From the NCBI GenBank assembly GCA_947449695.1, contig CANFST010000036.1, positions 1 to 32,797 of the forward strand: 32,797 nt of DNA, given 5' to 3'. Below the pieces are notes generated by a model. That model did not search any database and was not told the origin of the DNA. It was given only the letters and a program-made list of their open reading frames with translations. Origin of the DNA: Chitinophagales bacterium. GTDB taxonomy: Bacteria > Bacteroidota > Bacteroidia > Chitinophagales > CAIODY01. This document shows, in pieces, positions 2,971 to 30,806 of this stretch; within the stretch, counting starts at the first letter, position 1, and each line of letters opens with the position of its first letter. The position numbers were made by a program, and so were the translations under genes.

Positions 2971-5574
2971 ATGCAAAACTTTACAAAAGTATTTTTTTCT
3001 CTCTTTTTAACACTCTTATTGTCTTTTGCATTGGCATTACAAACCAAGGCTGTAAACTGTAATGCACATTTTATTCATTACCCGAATACGCACAACCCTG
3101 ATAGTGTTCATTTCTATCCAACGGTTACTACGGGTACTTCTTACTATTGGAATTTTGGTGATGGAAGTCCAACAGCTACTTCAACAAGCCCATGGCATTT
3201 GTATGCTGCCGCAGGTACTTACTATGTTTGCCTTTACATTAATGATTCAGGTACAGTTTGCACTTGGTGTGATAGTGTAAAGGTTACTGGTCATACGTTA
3301 ACACATCCATGCAATGCCGCATTTTCACATTACGCTTTGTCAAATCCGGATAGTGTTCATTTTTTTCCGGCAATTACCTCTAACTTTCCGCAATCATGGA
3401 ATTTTGGTGATGGCTCGGCTGTAAGTACTGCTTCAACGCCCTGGCATTTGTATGCTGCTTTAGGTACTTATGTAGTATGTCATACTGTAAATGATTCAGG
3501 TACTTATTGCACTTCATGCGATACGATAACAATTGTTGCGGTTAACTGTAATTCGCATTTTACGCATGCCCCCAACACACATAATGCAGATAGCATCTAT
3601 TTTTATCCAGCTGTTACCAATGCTGTATCTTATTACTGGAGTTTTGGTGATGGTTCACTTTCATCAACGGCTACTGCACCTTGGCATCTATATGCGCACA
3701 GTGGCACCTATCATGTTTGTTTGTATGTAAATGATTCAGGCACAATGTGCACTTGGTGCGATAGTGTGAAAGTGCTAGGTAATGCAGTACATTGCAATGC
3801 TCATTTTGTGCATTATCCAAATACACACAATACTGATAGTATTCATTTCTACCCGAACATTACCACTGGAACATCTTATTACTGGAGTTTTGGTGATGGC
3901 AGTACTTCATCAACGGCAACCAGCCCCTGGCATCAGTATGCACATAGTGGCACTTATTACGCTTGCTTATACATCAATGATTCAGGCACCACTTGCTCAT
4001 GGTGCGATAGTGTTAAAGTGATTGGGAATAATACAGTGCATTGTAATGCTCATTTTGTACATTATCCAAATACACACAATGCTGATAGTATTCATTTCTA
4101 TCCGAACATCACTACAGGAACATCCTATTACTGGAGTTTTGGTGATGGCACAACTTCATCAACAGCAACCAGTCCTTGGCATCAATATGCGCATAGTGGT
4201 ACTTATTATGCTTGCTTATACATCAATGATTCAGGCACCACTTGTTCATGGTGCGATAGTGTTAAAGTGTCAGGAACTATAAATTGTAATGCTCAATTTG
4301 TTCATTATCCAAACACCCACAACGCTGATAGCATTCATTTTTATCCTACCACCACTTCTGGAAGTTATTATTACTGGAATTTTGGTGATGGCACTAACTC
4401 AACGGGCATTGCTCCTTGGCATTTATATGCTCCAGGTACCTATGTTGCTTGTTTAACAATTAATACTGGTGGTGCTTATTGTACGCAATGCGATACTATT
4501 GTGGTTACAGGTTCACAGTTGCCGTGCAATGCTCATTTTACACATTACTCATTAACCAGCAATACTGATAGTATTCATTTTGTTCCATCAGTTACAGGCA
4601 CTAATACTTATTATTGGAATTTTGGTGATGGCACTCATTCAACAAACCATGATCCATGGCATACTTACAGCACACCTGGTCATTATTATGTTTGCTTGTA
4701 TGTGAATGGCACATCATGTCATTGGTGCGATAGTGTAATCATCAATGCCATTACACCACCTTGTAATACCCACTTTTCACACTATACTTTAAATAATCAA
4801 GATAGTGTTCATTTCTATCCAACAGGTACCACAGCAGCTTCTTACTATTGGAGTTTTGGTGATGGAACAACATCTGCTTCACAATATCCTTGGCATCAAT
4901 ATGCAGCGGCAGGCAGATATTATGTATGTATGAGAGCTACAACAGGCGCAGCCTATTGTTACTGGTGTGATAGTGTTACTGTGGTTGGTAATCCACCGCC
5001 ACCATGTAATTCAAACTATGCTTATTATTGTTTAGGCAACCCTGATAGTTTGCATTTCTATGCTTACAGTGGTGTCGGCACTAATTACTGGGATTTTGGT
5101 GATGGAACAACTTCAACATCTCAGTATCCTTGGCATTATTACACTACCTTAGGCACTTATAATGTTTGTCATACCACCAACAATAATGGTGTTTATTGCA
5201 CTTCGTGCGATAGTGTTACATTAGGTGGCACTTACTATGTTTTCTATCGAATTAATGCAGGCACTAGTGGCGATACTTTCCAGTTTGCACCTTCATCAGC
5301 CACTGGTATTAATGCGGTGATGCAGAATTATGGCATGGTAAAACTTTATCCGAATCCTTCTAACGAAAAGGTTACTATTGCTATCAGCAATTTATCAAAC
5401 ACAGCAAACATCAGGCTTTATGATAGTTATGGCAGAACTGTTTATGCAATGGATAATTTAATAGATGGTAATTTTACTATCAATACAAAAAATTTATTGG
5501 CAGGAAATTATTTTTATCTTATTAATTCCAATAACCAGATTATTGCTAAAGGGCAATTCATGATAGCTCATTAG
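2971..5574 (+). CDS. Nine-repeat PKD surface protein with T9SS type A sorting domain
   Basis: An 867-residue secreted protein. Residues 1-27 are a signal peptide (hydrophobic core TLLLSFALAL). From Cys30 there are nine consecutive repeats of about 80 residues. Each starts with a CNAHF-type motif and has the PKD signature YYW-FGDG, a PWHxYA segment, a YYVCLY strand and a CxxCDSVxV end, so four cysteines recur per repeat. Histidine is unusually frequent (for example HYPNTHN, HFYP, PWH). Repeats 4 and 5 (3793-4041 and 4042-4284) are almost identical. From about residue 789 (VKLYPNPSNEKV) to the end is a T9SS type A sorting domain, which routes the protein through the outer membrane to the cell surface. 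PKD folds usually serve in adhesion or as spacers; the ligand is unknown. The gene stands alone between two terminators. Confidence 0.92.
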   Translation: MQNFTKVFFSLFLTLLLSFALALQTKAVNCNAHFIHYPNTHNPDSVHFYPTVTTGTSYYWNFGDGSPTATSTSPWHLYAAAGTYYVCLYINDSGTVCTWCDSVKVTGHTLTHPCNAAFSHYALSNPDSVHFFPAITSNFPQSWNFGDGSAVSTASTPWHLYAALGTYVVCHTVNDSGTYCTSCDTITIVAVNCNSHFTHAPNTHNADSIYFYPAVTNAVSYYWSFGDGSLSSTATAPWHLYAHSGTYHVCLYVNDSGTMCTWCDSVKVLGNAVHCNAHFVHYPNTHNTDSIHFYPNITTGTSYYWSFGDGSTSSTATSPWHQYAHSGTYYACLYINDSGTTCSWCDSVKVIGNNTVHCNAHFVHYPNTHNADSIHFYPNITTGTSYYWSFGDGTTSSTATSPWHQYAHSGTYYACLYINDSGTTCSWCDSVKVSGTINCNAQFVHYPNTHNADSIHFYPTTTSGSYYYWNFGDGTNSTGIAPWHLYAPGTYVACLTINTGGAYCTQCDTIVVTGSQLPCNAHFTHYSLTSNTDSIHFVPSVTGTNTYYWNFGDGTHSTNHDPWHTYSTPGHYYVCLYVNGTSCHWCDSVIINAITPPCNTHFSHYTLNNQDSVHFYPTGTTAASYYWSFGDGTTSASQYPWHQYAAAGRYYVCMRATTGAAYCYWCDSVTVVGNPPPPCNSNYAYYCLGNPDSLHFYAYSGVGTNYWDFGDGTTSTSQYPWHYYTTLGTYNVCHTTNNNGVYCTSCDSVTLGGTYYVFYRINAGTSGDTFQFAPSSATGINAVMQNYGMVKLYPNPSNEKVTIAISNLSNTANIRLYDSYGRTVYAMDNLIDGNFTINTKNLLAGNYFYLINSNNQIIAKGQFMIAH
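3793..4284 (+). repeat. Near-identical tandem PKD units 4 and 5
   Basis: Two in-frame units of 249 and 243 bp. In the aligned domain cores I count 15 synonymous codon differences and only two amino-acid changes (Thr/Ala in NTD/NAD and Ser/Thr after FGDG). They are the closest pair among the nine repeats, consistent with a unit duplication or gene conversion followed by selection on the protein. Confidence 0.8.
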
Positions 5575-7915: not shown

Positions 7916-10900
7916 ATGAAAAAAACAGTACTCCTTTTATTCACTTTTTATTATTCACTATTCACTTTTGCTCAACCGCCTTATCCATCTGGCAGACCAA
8001 CTTTGGTTAAAGAATCTTTCGATGCAAAATCTCCTGCCGGAATTTATGAAAGCAAAGAAAATCCGTATTACTGGAAAAATAGAAAACCTGTTGAAACCTA
8101 CTGGCAGCAAGACATTCATTACACTATTGACGCAAATATTGATGAAACGAAAGACATCATTGAGGGCGATGAAACTTTAGAATATACCAACAATTCGCCT
8201 GATACTTTGAGCTTTGTTTTTTTTCATTTGTACCAAAATGCATTTCAACCCAATTCATATTTAGATGATTTGAGTAAACACAATAATGTAAAATCAAAAT
8301 GGGGAAAGTACGAAGCACAAGGCTTGGGAACTACTGTAGAATCGATAGTTTCAGATAATCAAGTATTGAAAACAGAATTAGATAACACGATTTTGAAAGT
8401 GTATTTGGCAAAACCAATTTTACCTAATTCACAAATTTCTTTCAAAATAAAATTCAAAACTTATTGGGATGCAGGGAGCCAAAGAAGGCGCATGAAAAAG
8501 TTTGATGTAGTTGGTTATAAAGATGAAGTTGGGCATCGTCATTATGATGGTGTGCATTGGTATCCGAGGATTTCTGTTTATGATGCAAAGTTTGGCTGGG
8601 ATGTTCAACAGCACATGGGCAAAGAATTTTACGGCGATTATGGCACTTATGATGTGACCTTGAAATTCAGTGATAATTACGTGGTGGAAGCAACAGGTTG
8701 GTTGCAAAATGAAAACGAAGCGATGCCAAATGAGTTGCGAAGCAAGCTCGACATCAAAAATTTTCCAAAGAAAAAAGAGGTTATTACTACAGTTTACCAT
8801 AGAAATGAAGGCAAAGGAAAAAAAGATATGCCGATGTGGGTTGTAAGTGAAGCTCCTAAAAAAGATTACGATAAACCCGAGGAAATAATTCCTTACAACA
8901 CTACAAACAGAAAAACCTGGAAATATCATGCAGTGAATGTGCATGATTTTGCTTTCACAGCTGACCCAAGTTATCGAATTGGTGAAAGCGAATGGAACGG
9001 AATTAAAATTGTTTCACTTGTTCAAGAAGCACATGCAAGTGGCTGGAAAAATGCAGCCGATTACACAGCTCGTGTGATTGAGTATTACAGCACTCACGTG
9101 GGCATGTATGCCTATCCAAAAATGGTGGTGGCTGATGCACAGGATGGTATGGAATATCCGATGCTTACATTGGATGGCGGTAGTGACCCGGGTTACAGAG
9201 ATTTGCTGGCGCATGAGGTTGGTCACAATTGGTTTTTCGGCATGGTCGGTAATAACGAAACTTACAGAGCGATGCTCGATGAAGGCTTTACACAATTCCT
9301 CAACACCAATGCCTGTGAGGCTTTGGATGGGAAATATCGCATCACTCCAAAATCAAAATCGTGGTATATGAATCGTTTTAAACAAAAAGATTTGATTAGA
9401 AATTCTGAAACAATGAATGGCTATATTAATGATGCCATGCACAATCCAACAGCAACTTTAAATACACACAGTGATGATTTTAACGGTGCATTAAATCATG
9501 ATGGCGGATATAGAAATGTGTATTTCAAAACATCTGCTATGCTTTTCAATTTGCAATATGTATTAGGTGATTCGCTGTTCTGGCAAGCATTTCAGCATTA
9601 TTTCAATCAATGGAAAATCTGTCATCCGTATCCAGAAGATTTTCGTCAGAGCATTCATCAATCTGCAAAAGTTGATTTGAATTGGTTTTTTGATGAGTGG
9701 ATGGAAACTGCAAAAACGATTGATTACAAAGTAGGAAGAGTGAAAAATTTAGGCGACCATAAATATCGCATCACTTTAAAACGAAACGGTGAAATGCAGA
9801 TGCCGCTTGATGTTCAAGTTACTGACAAAAATAATCAGCGTTATAATTTTTACATTCCGAACACTTGGTTTGTAAAAAATACTTCGGCAACTGTTTTACC
9901 AAAATGGTGGGGCTGGGGAAAATTCAGAAAAAAATATTCTTTCGATGTGCAACTCAGCAACAAATTGGATGATGTAAAAATTGATACATCACATCGTTTG
10001 GCGGATATTGACATGACCAACAATTTTTATCAAGACAATTCAAAAACAATTTTTGATGCAGGCTTAAATCAGCCACAGGATTGGACTTACAAGCTTCAAA
10101 AGATTCGCCCAGATGTTTGGTGGAATGGCGTAGATGGAATAAAACTCGGTGTGCATTATGATGAATCATTGATGAATTACAAACACAATTATTCTTTGTC
10201 GGCATGGTGGAACACAGGCGTAGCAAGCAACGTGGGCAATGTTGATTATTTGAAAGATAGCAAATCATCGTTAAAATATTTTGGTTTAATCCTCGACATG
10301 AATAATCCAACTGATAAAATGCTGAAGGGAAGCAGCTTTCAAGAGCATTTTCAGGTGAATGATGGATTGAATTTGGATAAAGTGCAATGGACAATTCAAG
10401 CCAATCCAAAAAATAAATTTTTCATCAACACCAAATTCATGCAACAATTTGACAAGCGTTATTTGTTCAATGCTTTTGATTGGGGCTTGGATAATTATTT
10501 GAGTGATAGCCGCTTAAGTCGCTCTGTGTATGCGTTGGACAATTCTTCTGATAATAAAAATAAAATCCTTACTTCTTCTTTCAATCCCAACAAACGTGAG
10601 TTTGAAAACAATGCCAGTTTGAATTTAGGTTGGGAACACATTTACAACTATTACACGGGCAATGGAAAAATTTTATTGGAAGGAAGATGTGGAACAACGA
10701 ATCATGATAGTGTGCATTGGCAACCTTATAGTTTTGTGCAATTGACAGTTACAAATAATACTCGTTGGAAAAAGTTTGATATTCGTACAAGAGCCTATGG
10801 ACGCTTGTCTTCGGGCATGTTGCCGAATGAATCAGCATTGTATTTAGCAGGTGCTTCGCCAGAAGAAAATGCTGAAAATAAATTTACTCGTTCGGTTGGT

Positions 10901-11389
10901 TACATCCCAAATGAGTGGATGCAATATCAAACTACCACATCGCATTTGCAGATGGGTGGCGGCTTGAACCTTCGTGGCTATGCAGGTTATCTGGCAGTGG
11001 AGCAATTTGCCAATCCGCAATATCAATATTTTACTTACAAAGGCAGAAGCGGTTTTTCGGGCAGTTTTGAAGTTGATTTTGATGATTACATAAAATTTCA
11101 TCCGAAGTTTTTCCGCAACTGGTTGCATGTGGATGCGTATGCTTTTGCTGATGGTGGTGTAATTATTTATGATGACAGTTTGAACAACTCCATCATTGGC
11201 GATTATACGTCTACATTTCGCATGGATGCTGGGATTGGAACAGCCTGGACAATTAAACGTTGGGGAAAATTAGATGCTATCAAACCATTCACTATTCGTT
11301 TTGATATGCCATTCTTTTTAAACCGCCCAGCTTATGGTGAAGAGTATTTTAAGTTTAGATGGGTAGTGGGAGTGAGTAGGAGTTTTTAA
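7916..11389 (+). CDS. M1 family metallopeptidase fused to an Omp85-like outer-membrane barrel
   Basis: A 1157-residue protein starting at the ATG at 7916, which gives a signal peptide ending in TFAQ; an upstream in-frame ATG at 7862 would precede the promoter element. The N-terminal half is an M1 (gluzincin) peptidase: exopeptidase-type motif DGMEYP at 410-415, zinc motif HEVGH at 433-437, and the third zinc ligand E456 exactly 18 residues later (MLDEGFTQF). From about residue 735 to the end the sequence changes to alternating amphipathic strands typical of outer-membrane barrels. It contains GGGLNLRGYAGY with R1020-G-Y, like the conserved loop motif of Omp85 proteins, then FADGG, RFDMPFFLNRP, and a final strand ending in RSF with C-terminal Phe. 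This suggests a peptidase anchored in the outer membrane by its own barrel. The peptidase call is firm; the Omp85 relationship is inferred from motif and strand pattern. Confidence 0.85.
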   Translation: MKKTVLLLFTFYYSLFTFAQPPYPSGRPTLVKESFDAKSPAGIYESKENPYYWKNRKPVETYWQQDIHYTIDANIDETKDIIEGDETLEYTNNSPDTLSFVFFHLYQNAFQPNSYLDDLSKHNNVKSKWGKYEAQGLGTTVESIVSDNQVLKTELDNTILKVYLAKPILPNSQISFKIKFKTYWDAGSQRRRMKKFDVVGYKDEVGHRHYDGVHWYPRISVYDAKFGWDVQQHMGKEFYGDYGTYDVTLKFSDNYVVEATGWLQNENEAMPNELRSKLDIKNFPKKKEVITTVYHRNEGKGKKDMPMWVVSEAPKKDYDKPEEIIPYNTTNRKTWKYHAVNVHDFAFTADPSYRIGESEWNGIKIVSLVQEAHASGWKNAADYTARVIEYYSTHVGMYAYPKMVVADAQDGMEYPMLTLDGGSDPGYRDLLAHEVGHNWFFGMVGNNETYRAMLDEGFTQFLNTNACEALDGKYRITPKSKSWYMNRFKQKDLIRNSETMNGYINDAMHNPTATLNTHSDDFNGALNHDGGYRNVYFKTSAMLFNLQYVLGDSLFWQAFQHYFNQWKICHPYPEDFRQSIHQSAKVDLNWFFDEWMETAKTIDYKVGRVKNLGDHKYRITLKRNGEMQMPLDVQVTDKNNQRYNFYIPNTWFVKNTSATVLPKWWGWGKFRKKYSFDVQLSNKLDDVKIDTSHRLADIDMTNNFYQDNSKTIFDAGLNQPQDWTYKLQKIRPDVWWNGVDGIKLGVHYDESLMNYKHNYSLSAWWNTGVASNVGNVDYLKDSKSSLKYFGLILDMNNPTDKMLKGSSFQEHFQVNDGLNLDKVQWTIQANPKNKFFINTKFMQQFDKRYLFNAFDWGLDNYLSDSRLSRSVYALDNSSDNKNKILTSSFNPNKREFENNASLNLGWEHIYNYYTGNGKILLEGRCGTTNHDSVHWQPYSFVQLTVTNNTRWKKFDIRTRAYGRLSSGMLPNESALYLAGASPEENAENKFTRSVGYIPNEWMQYQTTTSHLQMGGGLNLRGYAGYLAVEQFANPQYQYFTYKGRSGFSGSFEVDFDDYIKFHPKFFRNWLHVDAYAFADGGVIIYDDSLNNSIIGDYTSTFRMDAGIGTAWTIKRWGKLDAIKPFTIRFDMPFFLNRPAYGEEYFKFRWVVGVSRSF

Positions 11390-12127: not shown

Positions 12128-14065
12128 TTGAAGAAGATAATTTTCATCTTATTATGGTTGTTAAATTTTAATTTGCTCGTTAATGCTCAGCAAATAAGGA
12201 TTATGGGGAGTAATATTTTTCAGATTGATTCATCAAAAATTACTACCTATCATTTTAATAAGATAGACGAACAAACCCTGATTGATACTTCGATAAATAA
12301 TCTTCATCTGTTTCATCCTGCTCAAACCGAACAACAACCTTTTTATTTTGATTTAGGAAATCTTGGGCAGCCTGTCTATCAATTTTATCACTGGCAAAAT
12401 GTGCCTTTTGGTTTTAATCCTTCTATTGCTTCTTTAGAGCCAATGCATTTTACTTTTGATAATCAACCTTTGTATAGCACATATACTAAAGCTTTCAGCG
12501 ATTTGAAGTATGTGGTTGGTTTTAAAAATGAAAATTTATTAGATGCAATTCATTCGCAGAATATTAATCAGAATTTTCATTTTGATGCTCATTATCGTTA
12601 CATAAATTCAGATGGAATTTATTTACGTCAAACCACCAAGCATCAGAATCTTTTTTTGAATCTTTCATTTGTAAGCAATAGTGAACGTTATCATGCACAG
12701 GTAAGTTATTTGGTTAATCAATTTCGTTGGCAACAAAATGGAGGTACAATAAATGATTCTATTTATGAAAATAATTATATTAATAAAAATGTTGTGCCTG
12801 TCGTTTTCCAAAATGCTTACAGTAGAATGAAGGAAGATGCATGGCAGATTGCTAATAGCTATGAATTTGGCAGTCATTATGCAAAAAAAATCAACGATAC
12901 AGCAACCATAAAACACTTTATTCCATTTTTCCGTATCCAACATGTTTTAAAAATCAGTAATCAATACAGGCATAATGCTGATGATAATTTTGATTCGCTT
13001 AATTATTTACCATTGCATTATTCATCTCCAACTATAGATTCTTTCGGGAATAAAGATTCATTAGTCAATTCATTGGTAATTCATACCTATTCCAATCAAA
13101 TCAACTGGTTAACTATGCCTTACAAAAAATTTTATGGTGATTCAGTATTAGTAGCTAGAAAAACATTAATAAATCTGGGTATTGAACATCAATTGATTCA
13201 AGCCAAATTTGCACAGTTAAATAAATCAGATTACAATTTTAATTTGCATGGAAAAATAAAAAGCAACGATTTAAATCGTAAGAAATTCAATTACAATATC
13301 GCTGCTGATTATTGTGTAAGTGGCTATAATAAAGGTGATTATAAGCTTTCATTGTTTGCATTTGAAAAAATAATGAATTCAAATTTTGTTGGTATAGATG
13401 CTTTTGCGCAACAATATCGAAACGCATTAAATATTTTATTTTGGAGCAATGAATCATTACAACAGCAATATTTTTCTGATTCGCATCAGACTACAATTCA
13501 ATCAGCAACTATATTCTGGAAAAATAATCGCTTTAATTTCAAGCTGAGTTTTACCAATAATCTATTAACTAATTATCAATATTTCAATAACAATGCTCAA
13601 TTGATTGCAGGCAGTAGGACAATAACCCAACCTTACTTTCAATTAAAAAAAGATTTTATTTTTTATCACTGGCATTTCAATAATTTATTCAATTACAACA
13701 TAGTTCAAAACTCCGAAATACCTATGCCTGCTGTTTTATACCGTGGGCAATTGTATTATGAAAACAAACTGTTTAAAAAAGTTTTATTATTACAAATTGG
13801 CATGCAATTAAATTATCAGGATAAATATTTTGCACCTCAATGGATGCCAGTATTCGATTATTTTTATAACCAGCAAATTAACTTTGGATCACAACAAAAC
13901 CTTCAGTTTTTTGTCAATGCCAAAATAAAACAAGCCCGGATTTTTGTTAAAATTGACAATCTGTTACAAGGTGTTGATGGACATGGATATTACATTGGAA
14001 AATATTATCCTTTGCCTGACCGTGGCATAAAATTTGGCATTAGTTGGCGCTTTTTTGATGAATAA
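12128..14065 (+). CDS. Putative porin (Bacteroidota outer-membrane barrel), TTG start
   Basis: A 645-residue outer-membrane protein. The signal peptide KKIIFILLWLLNFNLLVNAQ follows the start. The remainder is rich in alternating aromatic/polar strands and Asn/Gln, without enzyme motifs, and matches the general form of the Bacteroidota putative porin family (about 650 residues): FYFDLGNLGQPVYQFYH near residue 75, LEPMHFTFDNQP, and a final strand IKFGISWRFFDE. The only start that keeps the signal peptide is TTG at 12128-12130, because a TAA lies just upstream in frame and the next ATG falls after the signal peptide. Substrate unknown. Family assignment rests on length, composition and the N-terminal motif and is fairly good. 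Confidence 0.75.
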   Translation: MKKIIFILLWLLNFNLLVNAQQIRIMGSNIFQIDSSKITTYHFNKIDEQTLIDTSINNLHLFHPAQTEQQPFYFDLGNLGQPVYQFYHWQNVPFGFNPSIASLEPMHFTFDNQPLYSTYTKAFSDLKYVVGFKNENLLDAIHSQNINQNFHFDAHYRYINSDGIYLRQTTKHQNLFLNLSFVSNSERYHAQVSYLVNQFRWQQNGGTINDSIYENNYINKNVVPVVFQNAYSRMKEDAWQIANSYEFGSHYAKKINDTATIKHFIPFFRIQHVLKISNQYRHNADDNFDSLNYLPLHYSSPTIDSFGNKDSLVNSLVIHTYSNQINWLTMPYKKFYGDSVLVARKTLINLGIEHQLIQAKFAQLNKSDYNFNLHGKIKSNDLNRKKFNYNIAADYCVSGYNKGDYKLSLFAFEKIMNSNFVGIDAFAQQYRNALNILFWSNESLQQQYFSDSHQTTIQSATIFWKNNRFNFKLSFTNNLLTNYQYFNNNAQLIAGSRTITQPYFQLKKDFIFYHWHFNNLFNYNIVQNSEIPMPAVLYRGQLYYENKLFKKVLLLQIGMQLNYQDKYFAPQWMPVFDYFYNQQINFGSQQNLQFFVNAKIKQARIFVKIDNLLQGVDGHGYYIGKYYPLPDRGIKFGISWRFFDE

Positions 14066-22320: not shown

Positions 22321-22404
22321 AGATTAATGTTTTTAAGTATATTGAAATGAAATGTACTTTCGCTTTTCATAAAAATGTACTTCTATACTGCTTACCATCT
22401 CTTC

Positions 22405-24351
22405 ATGAAAAAATTATTTCTTCTTGTTTGCTTGCCCATTCTGTTTTGTATCAGCAATATTTTTGCACAAGGCACTTGGTCTCCACTTTCAAATCAGGCA
22501 CCCGATGCTAATGGCGGCGTAATGTTACTTTTAACTGATGGAACAGTTATGTGCATGACACAAACCGATACAATAGGGGGAACAAGTATTGGCAATACGT
22601 GGAATTTATTAAAACCCGATGCTTATGGAAGTTATCAGAATGGCACTTGGTCAACCTTGCCTGCAATGAATTTTACTAGATTGTATTTTTCAAGTCAGGT
22701 TTTACCTAATGGCAATGTTTATATTGCAGGTGGCGAATACGGAACTGGTGGTCATTTTGGTGAATTATATGATGTTAATACAAAGCGATGGACAATTACT
22801 AACAATTCACCAAGTAGTAATTTTTTTTATGATGCTAATTCAAAACTATTATATAACGGTAATGTTTTGCAGGCTTGTGTTTCCCCCAATTCAAGTCGTA
22901 ATCTTATTTGGAATTCTTTATCTAATTCATACTCTTTTATTAGTGTACCAAATTCTTTCGGAAGTAGCGATGAAGCCTCATGGATTAAATTGCCTGATAA
23001 CAGTATTTTAAGTGTTGATTTGCAAAGTCAGAATGCTGAACGTTATTTTCCCCAAACTAATACATGGTTGCATGATGCCCATGTTCCAGTACCACTTTAT
23101 GATGCAAAACTTGGGGAAACAGGCGCATCAATATTATTGCCAAATGGTAAAATATTTTTTTTAGGTGATTCAGTTTACACAGCTATTTATACGCCTTCAG
23201 GAAGTGCAAATCCAGGTAGTTGGACAATCGGGCCACAAATGCCATTAGTAAATATTAATGGATCTTCAGTTCAATTAGCTTGTCCGGATGCACCAGCAGC
23301 TATGATGCCAAATGGAAAAATTCTTTGTTCTTTTTCACATGCAGGAACTTACAACGATACAGCCTGGTTTTATGAATACGATTACCTCACTAATGTTTTT
23401 ACACCAGTAAATACACCCGATGGAAATAGTCAGTTAAACGGAACACCATCTTATGCAATTAATATGCTCGACTTGCCTGACGGTACCGTATTAATGACCA
23501 AATTGGGAAGCAATCAATATTATCAATATAAGCCTTCGGGTAGTGCATTAGCTATTGGTAGGCCAAGTATCGATTCAATTTTTTCAACTGATTGTAAAAC
23601 TTTTAAAATAACAGGAAAATTATTTAATGGGATTGGCGAAGGTGCTTCGTATGGCGACGATTGGCAGATGTCAACCAACTATCCGATTGTACGATTAACA
23701 AAAGGTAACAAAGTTTATTATGCAAAAACTACCAACTGGAATAGAGTTGGGGCAGTCATGACAGGCAACTTAGCTGATACAGCTTATTTTACGGTGCCTG
23801 CTTCAATGCCTTCGGGCAATTATTCAGTTGAACTGATTGCAAATGGTAATCCTTCTTTTCCAACTGTTTTAAATTATCGTACCATTCAGTTGGCTTCAAC
23901 TTATCAGGATAATATAATCGGAAATAAAAATTGTATAGGTAAGGCTGAGGTAGCTGTAAAGAATGGCAAACCTCCTTATCAGCTTAAATGGAATGGAAGC
24001 AATGAAACCAGCGATAGCATTATTAATTTATGTGCTGGAAAATATTGTTGCACCGTTACAGATGATTATGGTTGTATAAGCAATACTTGTGTTACCATTA
24101 AAGATGGATTACCACCATCATTAAAAATTTATCCAGAACCTAATAATGGTATGTTTACAATTGTTGGATTGAGGGAAGGGCAAAAAATGATTTTGTATAA
24201 CGATATCGGACAATTTTTAAACGTATTTACAGCCGATGGAACATATACCTCAATTGATATTTCATCAAAAGAAGATGGTATTTATTTGCTTACCATTCTG
24301 AACTTAGATGAAAGTGTAATGAAGCAAGAGAAAATAATAAAGTCGAAATAA
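22405..24351 (+). CDS. Galactose-oxidase-like propeller protein with SprB repeat and T9SS type A sorting domain
   Basis: A 648-residue secreted protein; the start is the ATG at 22405 (MKKLFLLVCLPILFCISNIF signal peptide), ten codons inside a longer open frame. Residues about 25-390 form a kelch/galactose-oxidase-like beta-propeller (GTWSPLSNQAPDANGGVML, LTDGTVMCM, LPNGNVYIAGGEY, LPDGTVLMTKLGSNQYYQY), followed by a galactose-oxidase C-terminal-like Ig domain (RPSIDSIF to YRTIQLAS). I see no clear copper-ligand set, so enzyme activity is not claimed. Next comes one SprB-type repeat (NCIGKAEVAVKNGKPPYQLK, then CAGKYCCTVTDDYGC), then a type A sorting domain beginning LKIYPEPNNGMFTIVG. Expected on the cell surface. 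Confidence 0.85.
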   Translation: MKKLFLLVCLPILFCISNIFAQGTWSPLSNQAPDANGGVMLLLTDGTVMCMTQTDTIGGTSIGNTWNLLKPDAYGSYQNGTWSTLPAMNFTRLYFSSQVLPNGNVYIAGGEYGTGGHFGELYDVNTKRWTITNNSPSSNFFYDANSKLLYNGNVLQACVSPNSSRNLIWNSLSNSYSFISVPNSFGSSDEASWIKLPDNSILSVDLQSQNAERYFPQTNTWLHDAHVPVPLYDAKLGETGASILLPNGKIFFLGDSVYTAIYTPSGSANPGSWTIGPQMPLVNINGSSVQLACPDAPAAMMPNGKILCSFSHAGTYNDTAWFYEYDYLTNVFTPVNTPDGNSQLNGTPSYAINMLDLPDGTVLMTKLGSNQYYQYKPSGSALAIGRPSIDSIFSTDCKTFKITGKLFNGIGEGASYGDDWQMSTNYPIVRLTKGNKVYYAKTTNWNRVGAVMTGNLADTAYFTVPASMPSGNYSVELIANGNPSFPTVLNYRTIQLASTYQDNIIGNKNCIGKAEVAVKNGKPPYQLKWNGSNETSDSIINLCAGKYCCTVTDDYGCISNTCVTIKDGLPPSLKIYPEPNNGMFTIVGLREGQKMILYNDIGQFLNVFTADGTYTSIDISSKEDGIYLLTILNLDESVMKQEKIIKSK

Positions 24352-25272: not shown

Positions 25273-26685
25273 TTATTCCTTCACCACTTTCCCTCTCCAC
25301 ACTTTTTCGTTTTCTTTTACCTCGATGAAATAAATGCCTTGTGGTTGCTGACTTAATTCGAGTGTAAATTGATTGCCCGATTGGTTTTGTTTTTCAAATA
25401 CAGTTTGCCCTGTAAGGTTAATTAATTTAATTGTAGCTGCATTTACCGCTGATTGCAAACTAATTACTGTTGAATGGTTAGCAGGGTTGGGTGACAAATT
25501 CAATAATGTGTTTTGATTTATTGATGAAATACCTGTAACAACAACTGAATAGCATAAGGATGTATCCATACAAACATTATTGGTTAATGCTACTGCATAA
25601 TTGCCTGAAACAACAGGCGTAAAGCTTTGATTGGTTGCACCGACAATAGCAGCATTAGCATTATTACAATCAAGCCATTGATAGGTTGAATTGCTGGCGG
25701 ATGTTAAAGTTGTTCCATTTACAGTTACAGATTTATTTACTGGGTTAACTGTGTAATGAAGTGTAATCAATGAATCGCAACCTAAATAATTAGTGAAATG
25801 ATGTGTAAATGTGCCTGAAGATTTTAAATAAGTACCATAAAAATTAAAGCTATCTCCTTTGCAAACTGTTTGCGACATGGTAGTAGAAGAAGAGGGGAGT
25901 ATGGTTAAATTAAGCGTTATAGTTGAATCGCAATTCAAATAATTAGCCATTACATAATTGTAAACCCCAGAGTTGGTAAGTGTGGCACCGAAAAAACTAT
26001 AACTACCACAAACAGATTGATTTATACTCGAACTACTCGGATTATTGCAAATTCTTTCGGAGATATTTAAATGTGTAGTATTCCACAAATCATTATTATC
26101 ACTTCCGCTATTGCCATTTACAGCATTTACAACACCCCAAAACGAAATATAGCCAGTACCTGCAGTAGGAGCTTTCCAGTTAAATGTTTTTGAATAAGTT
26201 GAACCATTAGTTCCTGATCCGGTTGTTGCTGTTGTGGTTGCACTTTGTTCTACAAGATTCATAACAAAACTTCCAGCCATTGCAGCTGCATATCGGGTAG
26301 TTGGTGGTAAAGAGGTGGTAATCCATGCACCAGCATTGATTGGTGTGGTTTGAGCAACAGTATCTACAATACAACCTAATTGAAAGCCATAATTAGGTAA
26401 TGTGGTATTGCCATTGTTAACCCCGGTTATTTTTACTGTATAATTCATGCCTGGTACATATCTGTTAGTGGCTATGCCAGCTGAATCCAATTCAATTGAA
26501 ACTGCTATATTAGTAGTAGCATTTCCACTATGACATCCACTGCCTTTACATCCTGCCATATTTCCTAATCCGGTTTCAGCACCAGTACAGTTATGACCAT
26601 GCTTGGCAGCTCCTTTTTTATACCCTGTTAGTGTAATAAATGCAATAACTAAAACGGTAATAATGGACAGAATATTTTTTTTCAT
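25273..26685 (-). CDS. Choice-of-anchor-V/Reeler-like secreted protein with T9SS type A sorting domain
   Basis: A 470-residue secreted protein; the start is the ATG complementary to 26683-26685 (MKKNILSIITVLVIAFITLT signal peptide), the open frame extending 28 codons upstream. The mature N-terminus has C33 and the segment GCKGSGCHSG, giving C46-x4-C51-H52, then YVPGMNYTVKITG and PNYGFQLGCIV, as in choice-of-anchor-V/Reeler-type domains that usually begin with a C-x2-C-H motif. Two related Ig-like repeats follow (SVCGSYSFFGATLTNSGVYN and TVCKGDSFNFYGTYLKSSG, each with LGCDS/LNCDS), then an Ig-like PKD-type unit and a sorting domain from NLSPNPANHSTV to KVVKE. The CxnCH motif might bind heme c; this is inference. 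It follows the MFS gene on the minus strand with a 97-bp gap. Confidence 0.83.
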   Translation of the reverse strand: MKKNILSIITVLVIAFITLTGYKKGAAKHGHNCTGAETGLGNMAGCKGSGCHSGNATTNIAVSIELDSAGIATNRYVPGMNYTVKITGVNNGNTTLPNYGFQLGCIVDTVAQTTPINAGAWITTSLPPTTRYAAAMAGSFVMNLVEQSATTTATTGSGTNGSTYSKTFNWKAPTAGTGYISFWGVVNAVNGNSGSDNNDLWNTTHLNISERICNNPSSSSINQSVCGSYSFFGATLTNSGVYNYVMANYLNCDSTITLNLTILPSSSTTMSQTVCKGDSFNFYGTYLKSSGTFTHHFTNYLGCDSLITLHYTVNPVNKSVTVNGTTLTSASNSTYQWLDCNNANAAIVGATNQSFTPVVSGNYAVALTNNVCMDTSLCYSVVVTGISSINQNTLLNLSPNPANHSTVISLQSAVNAATIKLINLTGQTVFEKQNQSGNQFTLELSQQPQGIYFIEVKENEKVWRGKVVKE

Positions 26686-26782
26686 AAAGGCTGCAAAGCT
26701 AAAATTGCAATATGAATAAAATGTTACCAGAACTAAAACATGAATTAAACAAAGGGCTAAAACAACCAATAGAAAACAGTCA

Positions 26783-28144: not shown

Positions 28145-30724
28145 TTACCTGATTAAAGTAACATCTCCCTTTAAAAGCTGATGTGAAGATTGCTCAGAGA
28201 AACTATATTCAATCATATAAACATACACACTTAATGGTTGTTCTGCTCCTTCGAATTTCCCATCCCATCTGTTGTGATAATTAGATGATGCAAATATTTG
28301 TTCACCCCATCTATTATATACCGCAATTTTATAAAACCTAAGATCATCAGGATGATTGGTTATAGCACCAAAATCATCATTGTAGCCATCGCCATTAGGT
28401 GAAAACGCATTAGGCACCTGCAATACTTCAACACAATGTTCTGATACATTGATTGAATCAGTTGCCGCACAGCCATAATTATTTTTTACAGTAACACTGT
28501 ATTCACCAGCCCTGGTAACCATGAAAGTATTATTGCTACTTCCATCTTGCCATTTTATAAAATTGAAATTAGAAACAGATAAAATGATTTTATCAAACCC
28601 ATCGCAAATAGTTGTGTCGGCTCCTAAATTAACATTCATCATTCCGAATGAAGGAGTTACAGCCTGCATAGTATCTTTACATTGATTAGAATCAGTTACT
28701 ATTGCAGTAACCTGTGTTTGATAGGCAATATGATTAATCGTTGGTGAATAGGAATTAAATGGTAACCAATGATACTGGTAAGGAGGTGTGCCACTGTTGA
28801 TGGAAATTGAATCTTCACCTTTTGATGAATTACAGGTATCAGGTTTTGTAATAATGGAAAACTTTAAGGGGATTGAAGGTTTTATTGATAAAGTATCATT
28901 GATCACACAATTGTGCGAATCAATCACCTGTACTAAATAAGTGCCACTGATTAAATTATTTGCCGAATTGGAAGAACTTATATTAGGTTGCCAATTATAA
29001 CTGTATGGCGATATACCACCATTTACCTGAACAGAAGCAAGCCCATTTTTTTTACCACATGTAGTATTAGTAAGTTGGTTATGTAATTGCAAAGCTGATG
29101 GTTGATGAATATTAAACTGAATTTGTGCTGTGCAATTATTCGCATCTGTTACAATAACACTATAATTATTGGCAGATAAAGAAGCGGATGAATTGGAGTT
29201 GCTCACATTAGGCGTCCATGAATAATTAAATCCTGGTGTACCTCCATTTACCTGCACAGTTGCACCTCCATCATTACCATTATAACAAGAAACATTTTTT
29301 AAATTGATTATTCCTAGAGTCATACTACCGCCTGATGAGGGGACATAAACATGAATAGAATCTGTACAACCGTTTTGGTCAATGATGGATACCACATAAT
29401 TTCCGGCATTGATATTATTTGCAATATTGCTTGAACTCACATTGGGTTGCCATTGATAATTATAGTTGGGGGTGCCTCCATTTTCAGTAACAGTACCTGA
29501 ACCATTAGCCGAACCACAAACTGATGAAGTTGTACTGAAACTATGGCTGAAATTAGCTGGCTGGGTGATATGCACTGACCTGGAAACACTGCAGGTTTTC
29601 TGTTGTGATACTGTAATGGTATAAATACCTGCCACCAGTTGAAAGGCAGAATCAGTCAATTGCGGAGGTGTTGTATTCCAGGAGTAGGATAGAGGAGCAT
29701 TACTCCCAGTCACTATGGCATTTGCCTGACCATTATTTCCATTAGGGCAGGAAACATTTAAAGAATCTATACTTAAACCTAATACAGCTATTGATTTTGT
29801 AATAGTATCATTTCCGCTGCATGCGTTGGTAGCAACTAACTGCACATGATAAACCCCAGGCGATGAAAAGATATGTGTGGGGTTTTGAACAGTGCTTGTA
29901 TTATTTACACCCGAAGCAACATCTCCAAAATTCCAATGCCACGATGAAGGACAATTAGTAGAGGAATCTGAAAAGGAAAATGTAGCAGTAGAGGTGCAGT
30001 TAAAACCGAAATCAGCCGTATAACGTGGGGCATTCTGAATATATACATCATCAAAGGCTACACCATCAAATGCATTGCAAGTGGTACCAGCGCCAAATGT
30101 GAATCGAAACAAAACATTCGACTGACCTGCTAAAAAACTTAAACAATGTTTGGCTACTACCCAGCCGCTGCTACCGCCTCCACCCTGACAACTGCCTGCT
30201 GTGGCTTGCATATTGCCACTCCATCCGTCTTTTACTGTGGCAAGATTGGTTAAATAAACTACAGGAGTATAGTTATACCAATTGGCTGTGTAACAATCAG
30301 TCGGCTCATTCACAGTGCCTACATTTATCCACGAAGTACCATTATTGATAGAGTACTGCAGATTTGAACCATCGTACTTACGCTCCGACTCCCAGAAAAT
30401 TTTAAACTCAATATAAGGATGTGCAAGATTAGTGAAATCAAAACAGGGACTGGTTACATAAGAGCGTTCGCCATTAGCATACGAACTGTTGGTCAAACCC
30501 CCTACTATCCAGCATTTCAGCCCTTGCCCTGCTGAACTGATAACTGGTTTAGAAGGTGTGCCCCATGCCCAATCATTCGATACACCACCTGATGTCCAGC
30601 TTCCATTAGTGATTTCAAAATTTTCGTGATAAGGAAATGTGCTTATACATTGAGCTTTAAGGCTCAGAAAACCTGAAAAAAGAAATGCAATACCTGATAA
30701 AATAAACCTAAGGTGATTATTCAT
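28145..30724 (-). CDS. PKD/SprB-repeat cargo with gliding-motility-associated (T9SS type B) C-terminal domain
   Basis: An 859-residue secreted protein; the start is the ATG complementing 30722-30724 (MNNHLRFILSGIAFLFSGFL signal peptide). Residues about 25-235 form a jelly-roll/MAM-like domain (FPYHENFE, WAWGTPSKP, SYVTSPCFDF, FDGVAFDDVYI). A PKD domain follows (SWHWNFGD, NPTHIFSSPGVYHVQL). Next are five SprB-type repeats of about 75 residues, each with a C-x-x-x-x-G start, NGGTPxYxYxW and a Y-x-V-x-V-x-D-x-x-x-C end. After an Ig-like module (LGADTTICDG) comes the type B sorting domain (VPNAFSPNGDGYNDDF, VYNRWGEQIF, WDGKFEGAEQPLSVYVYMI). Such proteins are exported by T9SS and are often adhesins linked to gliding; gliding here is not shown. 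It stands alone. Confidence 0.92.
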   Translation of the reverse strand: MNNHLRFILSGIAFLFSGFLSLKAQCISTFPYHENFEITNGSWTSGGVSNDWAWGTPSKPVISSAGQGLKCWIVGGLTNSSYANGERSYVTSPCFDFTNLAHPYIEFKIFWESERKYDGSNLQYSINNGTSWINVGTVNEPTDCYTANWYNYTPVVYLTNLATVKDGWSGNMQATAGSCQGGGGSSGWVVAKHCLSFLAGQSNVLFRFTFGAGTTCNAFDGVAFDDVYIQNAPRYTADFGFNCTSTATFSFSDSSTNCPSSWHWNFGDVASGVNNTSTVQNPTHIFSSPGVYHVQLVATNACSGNDTITKSIAVLGLSIDSLNVSCPNGNNGQANAIVTGSNAPLSYSWNTTPPQLTDSAFQLVAGIYTITVSQQKTCSVSRSVHITQPANFSHSFSTTSSVCGSANGSGTVTENGGTPNYNYQWQPNVSSSNIANNINAGNYVVSIIDQNGCTDSIHVYVPSSGGSMTLGIINLKNVSCYNGNDGGATVQVNGGTPGFNYSWTPNVSNSNSSASLSANNYSVIVTDANNCTAQIQFNIHQPSALQLHNQLTNTTCGKKNGLASVQVNGGISPYSYNWQPNISSSNSANNLISGTYLVQVIDSHNCVINDTLSIKPSIPLKFSIITKPDTCNSSKGEDSISINSGTPPYQYHWLPFNSYSPTINHIAYQTQVTAIVTDSNQCKDTMQAVTPSFGMMNVNLGADTTICDGFDKIILSVSNFNFIKWQDGSSNNTFMVTRAGEYSVTVKNNYGCAATDSINVSEHCVEVLQVPNAFSPNGDGYNDDFGAITNHPDDLRFYKIAVYNRWGEQIFASSNYHNRWDGKFEGAEQPLSVYVYMIEYSFSEQSSHQLLKGDVTLIR

Positions 30725-30806
30725 AAAACGATGCAAATATCGTCAATACGTTTTGCCCCGTTGCTTACCCAAAGTGAACTTAGTATTAAATTTAACCTAT
30801 GCCTCT

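Follow-up and report, generated by a model that had tools for sequence, protein, structure and literature searches.

Proteins of the Omp85 superfamily usually carry POTRA domains before the barrel, but some accepted subfamilies, among them noNterm and Metallo, have none. Two motifs forming a lid-lock pair were defined in PMC4490367: (V/I)RG(Y/F), located at the L6 loop tip, and (F/G)xDxG, located in strand 13 on the inner wall of the barrel. Fusions of an enzyme to an Omp85 barrel have been described previously. For the patatin-like protein PlpD, secretion of the enzyme was assumed for a long time, but the enzyme was then shown to remain periplasmic (PMC11116518); PlpD forms homodimers (PMC11116518). 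The example of PlpD suggests that not every Omp85 member inserts or translocates polypeptides at the outer membrane. Ten Omp85 subfamilies were distinguished by Heinz and Lithgow in 2014 (PMC4104836). For the Metallo subfamily, conservation was reported at the genus level only, its PF00149 domain was called a metalloprotease, and a group consisting of the barrel alone, with sequence similarity to the Metallo barrel, was noted (PMC4104836). An M1 peptidase was found in none of the ten subfamilies, and neither PF01433 nor the word 'peptidase' occurred in the main text searched (PMC4104836). A full-text search of open-licence papers returned no published M1–Omp85 protein and no related Omp85 or outer-membrane aminopeptidase, although such an absence is not proof.

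The window, the whole analysed stretch of 32,797 nucleotides from a Chitinophagales bacterium, encoded on its forward strand a protein in which an M1 aminopeptidase is predicted to be fused to an Omp85-type barrel (7916–11389), based on the translated open reading frame and its orthologues. The reading frame was intact, with the ATG at 7916, the stop codon at 11387–11389 and a product of 1157 residues. The N-terminus (MKKTVLLLFTFYYSLFTFAQ) was recognized by eye as a hydrophobic Sec-type signal sequence without a lipobox cysteine. A type I signal peptide was accordingly predicted from the sequence at residues 1–19/20 (MKKTVLLLFTFYYSLFTFA-Q, 7916–7972), with a helix at residues 2–16 in the structural model.

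The M1 metallopeptidase module (residues ~60–689, 8093–9982) was delimited with Pfam PF01433 and by structural matching, and consisted of an N-terminal beta domain, a catalytic domain and a small beta-sandwich (604–689). Peptidase_M1 (PF01433) was the sole Pfam family found in the protein (E 1.1e-14, residues 429–595, above its cut-off). As an earlier note on this DNA had stated, a canonical HExxH-x18-E zinc site was present at residues 433–456 (9212–9283), with HEVGH at 433–437 and the third ligand, E456, exactly 18 residues further. Conservation was evaluated in 50 aligned orthologues, 40–94% identical to the window protein, in which H433, E434, H437 and E456 were each invariant (50/50). The M1 exopeptidase motif GxMEN was represented by the variant GMEYP (residues 411–415, 9146–9160); in the alignment its glutamate, E413, was kept in all 50 orthologues, while the asparagine was replaced by tyrosine. 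Y536 (9521–9523), in a VYxK context, was likewise invariant in 50 of 50 and is the probable catalytic tyrosine, given its position relative to E456. The nearest solved structures by sequence were the Colwellia aminopeptidase and leukotriene A4 hydrolases. From approximately residue 61 on, the full-length AlphaFold2 model matched M1 aminopeptidases with Z 25–28 (tricorn factor F3, IRAP, LTA4H, ERAP1). The zinc site, the exopeptidase glutamate, the N-terminal beta domain and the catalytic domain were common to the window protein and known M1 aminopeptidases (LTA4H, IRAP/ERAP1, tricorn factor F3, the Colwellia aminopeptidase and the two-domain M1 of D. radiodurans). In contrast to these enzymes, the window protein had GMEYP for GxMEN. 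In the model, the helical domain IV of full-length M1 enzymes was not seen, and the chain entered the barrel directly after the beta-sandwich. Judged by its sequence, the N-terminal half is an M1 zinc aminopeptidase with an intact site, and its peptidase activity is predicted.

Since M1 enzymes alone were among the matches listed for the full-length model, the barrel was modelled and searched by itself. Both AlphaFold2 models, of the full-length protein (pLDDT 77) and of residues 698–1157, were moderate in confidence; the barrel model had a mean pLDDT of 74 and a pTM of 0.76, and confidence was low at residues 858–895 and around the L6 tip. Both contained 16 strands, 11 before and five after the loop carrying the RGY motif, which is the Omp85 layout. 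The barrel spanned residues ~720–1157 (10073–11386), as delimited by the models, the structure searches and profile–profile comparison. In the models, loop L6 (residues 967–1044, 10814–11047) lay between strands 11 and 12 and contained LRGY at 1019–1022, within GGGLNLRGYAGY at residues 1014–1025; the first position of the motif was leucine, not valine or isoleucine. The second signature defined in PMC4490367, FxDxG, which the earlier note had missed, was present as FADGG (residues 1077–1081, 11144–11158) and was placed by the model on the 13th strand (1070–1086). The protein ended in ...RWVVGVSRSF, a beta-signal-like end with a C-terminal phenylalanine (F1157, 11384–11386).

The R-G-Y motif and the terminal phenylalanine, both of which had been pointed out before, were invariant (R1020, G1021, Y1022 and F1157, each 50/50), as were F1077, D1079 and G1081 of the FxDxG motif (each 50/50). 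With invariance across all 50 orthologues, the HExxH-x18-E, RGY and terminal phenylalanine features are not due to chance. An RG[YF] ... FxDxG pair at matching spacing occurred in one of 424 unrelated open reading frames of the fetched loci, and this one was a divergent M1–barrel protein. In a Foldseek search with the barrel model, 107 matches had E ≤ 0.001, and each of the best 50 was a BamA or TamA chain. A second structural aligner, VIA, gave Z 17–20, and its best 50 matches were exclusively BamA, Sam50, FhaC, TamA and Toc75 chains, including BamA of D. radiodurans, F. johnsoniae and P. gingivalis. The earlier proposal of an M1 metallopeptidase on an Omp85-type barrel, for which a comparison of the predicted C-terminal structure with known Omp85 proteins had been recommended, was thereby borne out at the level of the models, with a 16-strand fold and RGY inside L6; of the two refuting conditions named in the note, this was the stronger.

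The other check proposed for the C-terminal domain, a search with the Omp85 profile, gave no direct match. Neither the window protein nor any of 38 barrel domains of the family matched Pfam Omp85 (Bac_surface_Ag, PF01103) at E < 1. Scans of the C-terminal half with Pfam and NCBIfam also gave no match, and neither the stand-alone relatives of the barrel nor the divergent fusions had a meaningful Pfam match. These results would be expected if the domain were a barrel unrelated to Omp85, for example of the porin or transporter type, with a coincidental RGY motif; in the same direction, an HMM of the C-terminal family searched directly against known Omp85 open reading frames picked up none. Because the direct search missed them, profile–profile comparison was needed. 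With hhalign, the merged family, to which divergent members had been added, scored 95.6% (local) and 97.0% (global) against Bacteroidota Omp85, and the reversed controls did not exceed 1.0%. The close family alone scored 50–66% against a mixed Omp85 set, and the top reversed control over all comparisons (5.4%) was also obtained with the close family alone. Since the profile–profile comparison was positive, we read the missing Pfam match as a limit of profile sensitivity and not as a structural failure; the relation to Omp85 was visible through profile–profile comparison and structure alone. An unrelated barrel is highly improbable in our assessment, as the strand count, the position of L6, FxDxG on strand 13, the structural ranking and the profile–profile scores all agree against it. 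The fold, the structure searches, the signature motifs and the profile–profile comparison support the assignment of the C-terminal domain as a predicted Omp85-type 16-strand barrel.

No POTRA domain was predicted. In the model, the region before the barrel was the all-beta sandwich at 604–689, without POTRA-like helices, so the M1 module fills the place of the POTRA domains, as had been suggested from the sequence. With PlpD and other patatin-like Omp85 proteins (FplA; 'type Vd'), the window protein has in common a single polypeptide in which a periplasm-facing hydrolase is followed by an Omp85 16-strand barrel. However, the enzyme of PlpD is a patatin lipase and is separated from the barrel by one POTRA domain, whereas the window protein has an M1 peptidase, lacks a patatin domain and has no predicted POTRA. 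It also shares the barrel fold, (V/I/L)RG(Y/F) in L6, FxDxG on strand 13 and the C-terminal aromatic residue with Bacteroidota BamA, TamA and TamL, but those proteins carry POTRA domains, while its own barrel lacks them and has diverged beyond the reach of the Pfam Omp85 model. The enzyme domain of the Metallo subfamily is PF00149, which we take to be a calcineurin-like metallophosphoesterase domain; the window protein does not contain it, PF01433 being the only family found. In both, the domain joined to the Omp85 barrel is an enzyme and not a POTRA domain (PMC4104836).

In the strand list of the full-length model, the loops on the barrel side far from the N-terminus totalled ~194 residues, compared with ~44 for the turns on the same side as the N-terminus. 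This asymmetry is the usual outside/inside pattern of such barrels and would place the N-terminus, and hence the M1 module, in the periplasm. The earlier note had described the protein as a surface or periplasmic peptidase that was possibly self-secreting. Secretion of this kind, similar to type Vd, would have the barrel export the M1 module, which would then degrade external peptides at the cell surface; it draws on the analogy with patatin-type proteins and on FhaC, one of the structural matches, since FhaC-type Omp85 barrels translocate polypeptides. The analogy has lost its basis, however, because the PlpD patatin domain was shown to stay periplasmic (PMC11116518). Furthermore, the lock motif was the F-type FxDxG of BamA and TamA and not the GxDxG of FhaC, and the enzyme of ~600 residues precedes the barrel, with no plug or release site seen. 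The 'surface' and 'self-secreting' parts of the earlier description were thus unsupported, and we consider self-secretion very unlikely. Type IX secretion of the fusion protein was considered and rejected, as no sorting tail was matched with Pfam and the C-terminal end is a barrel strand.

We consider it probable, from the models and by analogy with PlpD, that this protein acts as an M1 aminopeptidase in the periplasm and that its own Omp85 barrel fixes it to the inner face of the outer membrane, with both activity and topology predicted. The fusion protein would be exported by Sec and its signal peptide cleaved, after which BAM would insert the C-terminal 16-strand barrel. The M1 module would remain in the periplasm, at the position of the POTRA domains or of the PlpD patatin domain, and, at the membrane surface, would shorten peptides from the N-terminal end. 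The L6 lid lock, formed by R1020 with D1079 of FxDxG, would keep the barrel closed, and the barrel would serve mainly as an anchor or platform. The periplasmic topology, the absence of translocation and the substrates are all inferred.

The fusion was not confined to the window. A scan of species-representative genomes yielded 60 related loci, nearly all of which encoded the same fusion and came from uncultured Bacteroidota. In total, nearly 60 orthologues of the fusion were obtained, together with divergent M1–barrel proteins across the Bacteroidota and stand-alone barrels in other genomes. Of the 395 genomes sampled from the phylum, 73 had a match to the barrel profile; in 27 of these the match was inside an open frame of at least 966 aa, and in the rest the frames were ~400–500 aa. 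The short-frame matches examined were stand-alone barrels without an M1 domain. Compared with two close orthologues, dN/dS was 0.08–0.21 in both halves of the gene, and both the M1 half and the barrel half are under purifying selection. Over longer distances, conservation was higher in the M1 half than in the barrel (median identity of 59% vs 37%). In an unrooted tree of the M1 domains, the label 'without barrel' required three changes, but one row with this label (L028, 447 aa) was truncated at the locus boundary and may carry the wrong label. One early fusion followed by losses is the simplest reading of these sequences, although it is not proven by an unrooted tree. The M1–barrel fusion is ancient and widespread in the Bacteroidota.

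Several other long M1 proteins carried a homologous barrel (hhalign 99.2–99.7% to the window family) in which RGY was lost and an FxDxG-like motif was mostly kept. The genome of the window itself encoded such an M1 paralogue (contig 5, 24368–26017; locus L002, 799–3864), with an open frame of 1021 aa and a C-terminal homologous barrel without RGY. At another locus (L015; G164 contig 11, 140016–144322), two M1–barrel fusion genes were arranged in tandem in one genome. In a divergent member (L092, JAUIGE010000002.1, 6001–8883), the zinc site was lost: HExxH read RELAFAWF and parts of the domain were deleted. The open frame, GGLNLRGYSGW and the C-terminal phenylalanine were retained, and from its sequence this protein probably combines an inactive M1 domain and an intact barrel. 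Other, separate M1 homologues were also encoded in this genome. Stand-alone, POTRA-less Omp85-like barrels of ~420 aa without a Pfam match were present at L163 (6224–13294), L162 and L164–L169, and two of them were in tandem in the L164 genome. They have a parallel in the barrel-only group reported for Metallo (PMC4104836). At the eight loci examined, they were located in a conserved cluster with GreA and NUDIX genes and, in most, also with acetate kinase and phosphotransacetylase; the cluster members were GreA, NUDIX, the barrel, acetate kinase, an SH3-domain protein, an EamA transporter and phosphotransacetylase. This housekeeping cluster gives no pointer to function.

The barrel could alternatively be an active insertase, an assembly factor or a peptide conduit, with the M1 module processing its substrates, for example the N-termini of outer-membrane proteins or incoming peptides. 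Both lid-lock motifs were invariant over the 50 orthologues of the window clade, beyond what a passive anchor needs, so a role in transport or assembly is possible. The barrel may also have a job of its own, since the divergent L092 protein has kept the barrel motifs without a zinc site and stand-alone versions exist without any enzyme. Against this, the protein has no POTRA domain for handling substrates, and the gene neighbourhood in the window was not conserved and held no dedicated substrate. The neighbours of the window gene recurred beside at most two orthologous loci, while some orthologous loci had neighbours in common among themselves. In addition, the RGY arginine has been lost from a related clade of fusions in which FxDxG is mostly retained, and for this reason an anchor was preferred to a machine. 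We regard an active barrel as unlikely. A more specific proposal, that the aminopeptidase replaces POTRA and works with an active, lid-locked barrel in an undescribed, phylum-wide Omp85 subfamily coupling polypeptide passage or insertion to periplasmic N-terminal trimming, is put forward as speculative and on balance doubtful.

A putative porin (Porin_10) was encoded downstream of the fusion gene (12128–14065), and this linkage was not conserved in most orthologous loci. Elsewhere in the window, type IX secretion cargo was encoded at 2971–5574, 22375–24351, 25273–26769 and 28145–30736, comprising PKD-repeat, Kelch and SprB-repeat proteins with Por_Secre_tail or CHU_C sorting domains.

With the membrane-anchored aminopeptidase as the preferred reading, what is new here is the M1 variant of the enzyme–Omp85 proteins; the enzyme–Omp85 architecture itself was already known, and the protein hence does not represent a new kind of system. 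Because the barrel lies below detection by Pfam, the fusion would escape a survey that relies on the Pfam Omp85 profile. M1–barrel proteins presumably carry a plain M1 metallopeptidase annotation in which the membrane half goes unrecognized, and their localization may therefore be mis-assigned. With this finding, a peptidase joins the few enzymes known in fusion with Omp85 barrels. The family would also provide a natural series for the role of a POTRA-less barrel, from M1–barrel proteins with the lid lock, through those that lost the lock arginine and an apparently inactivated M1 with an intact barrel, to the barrel alone.
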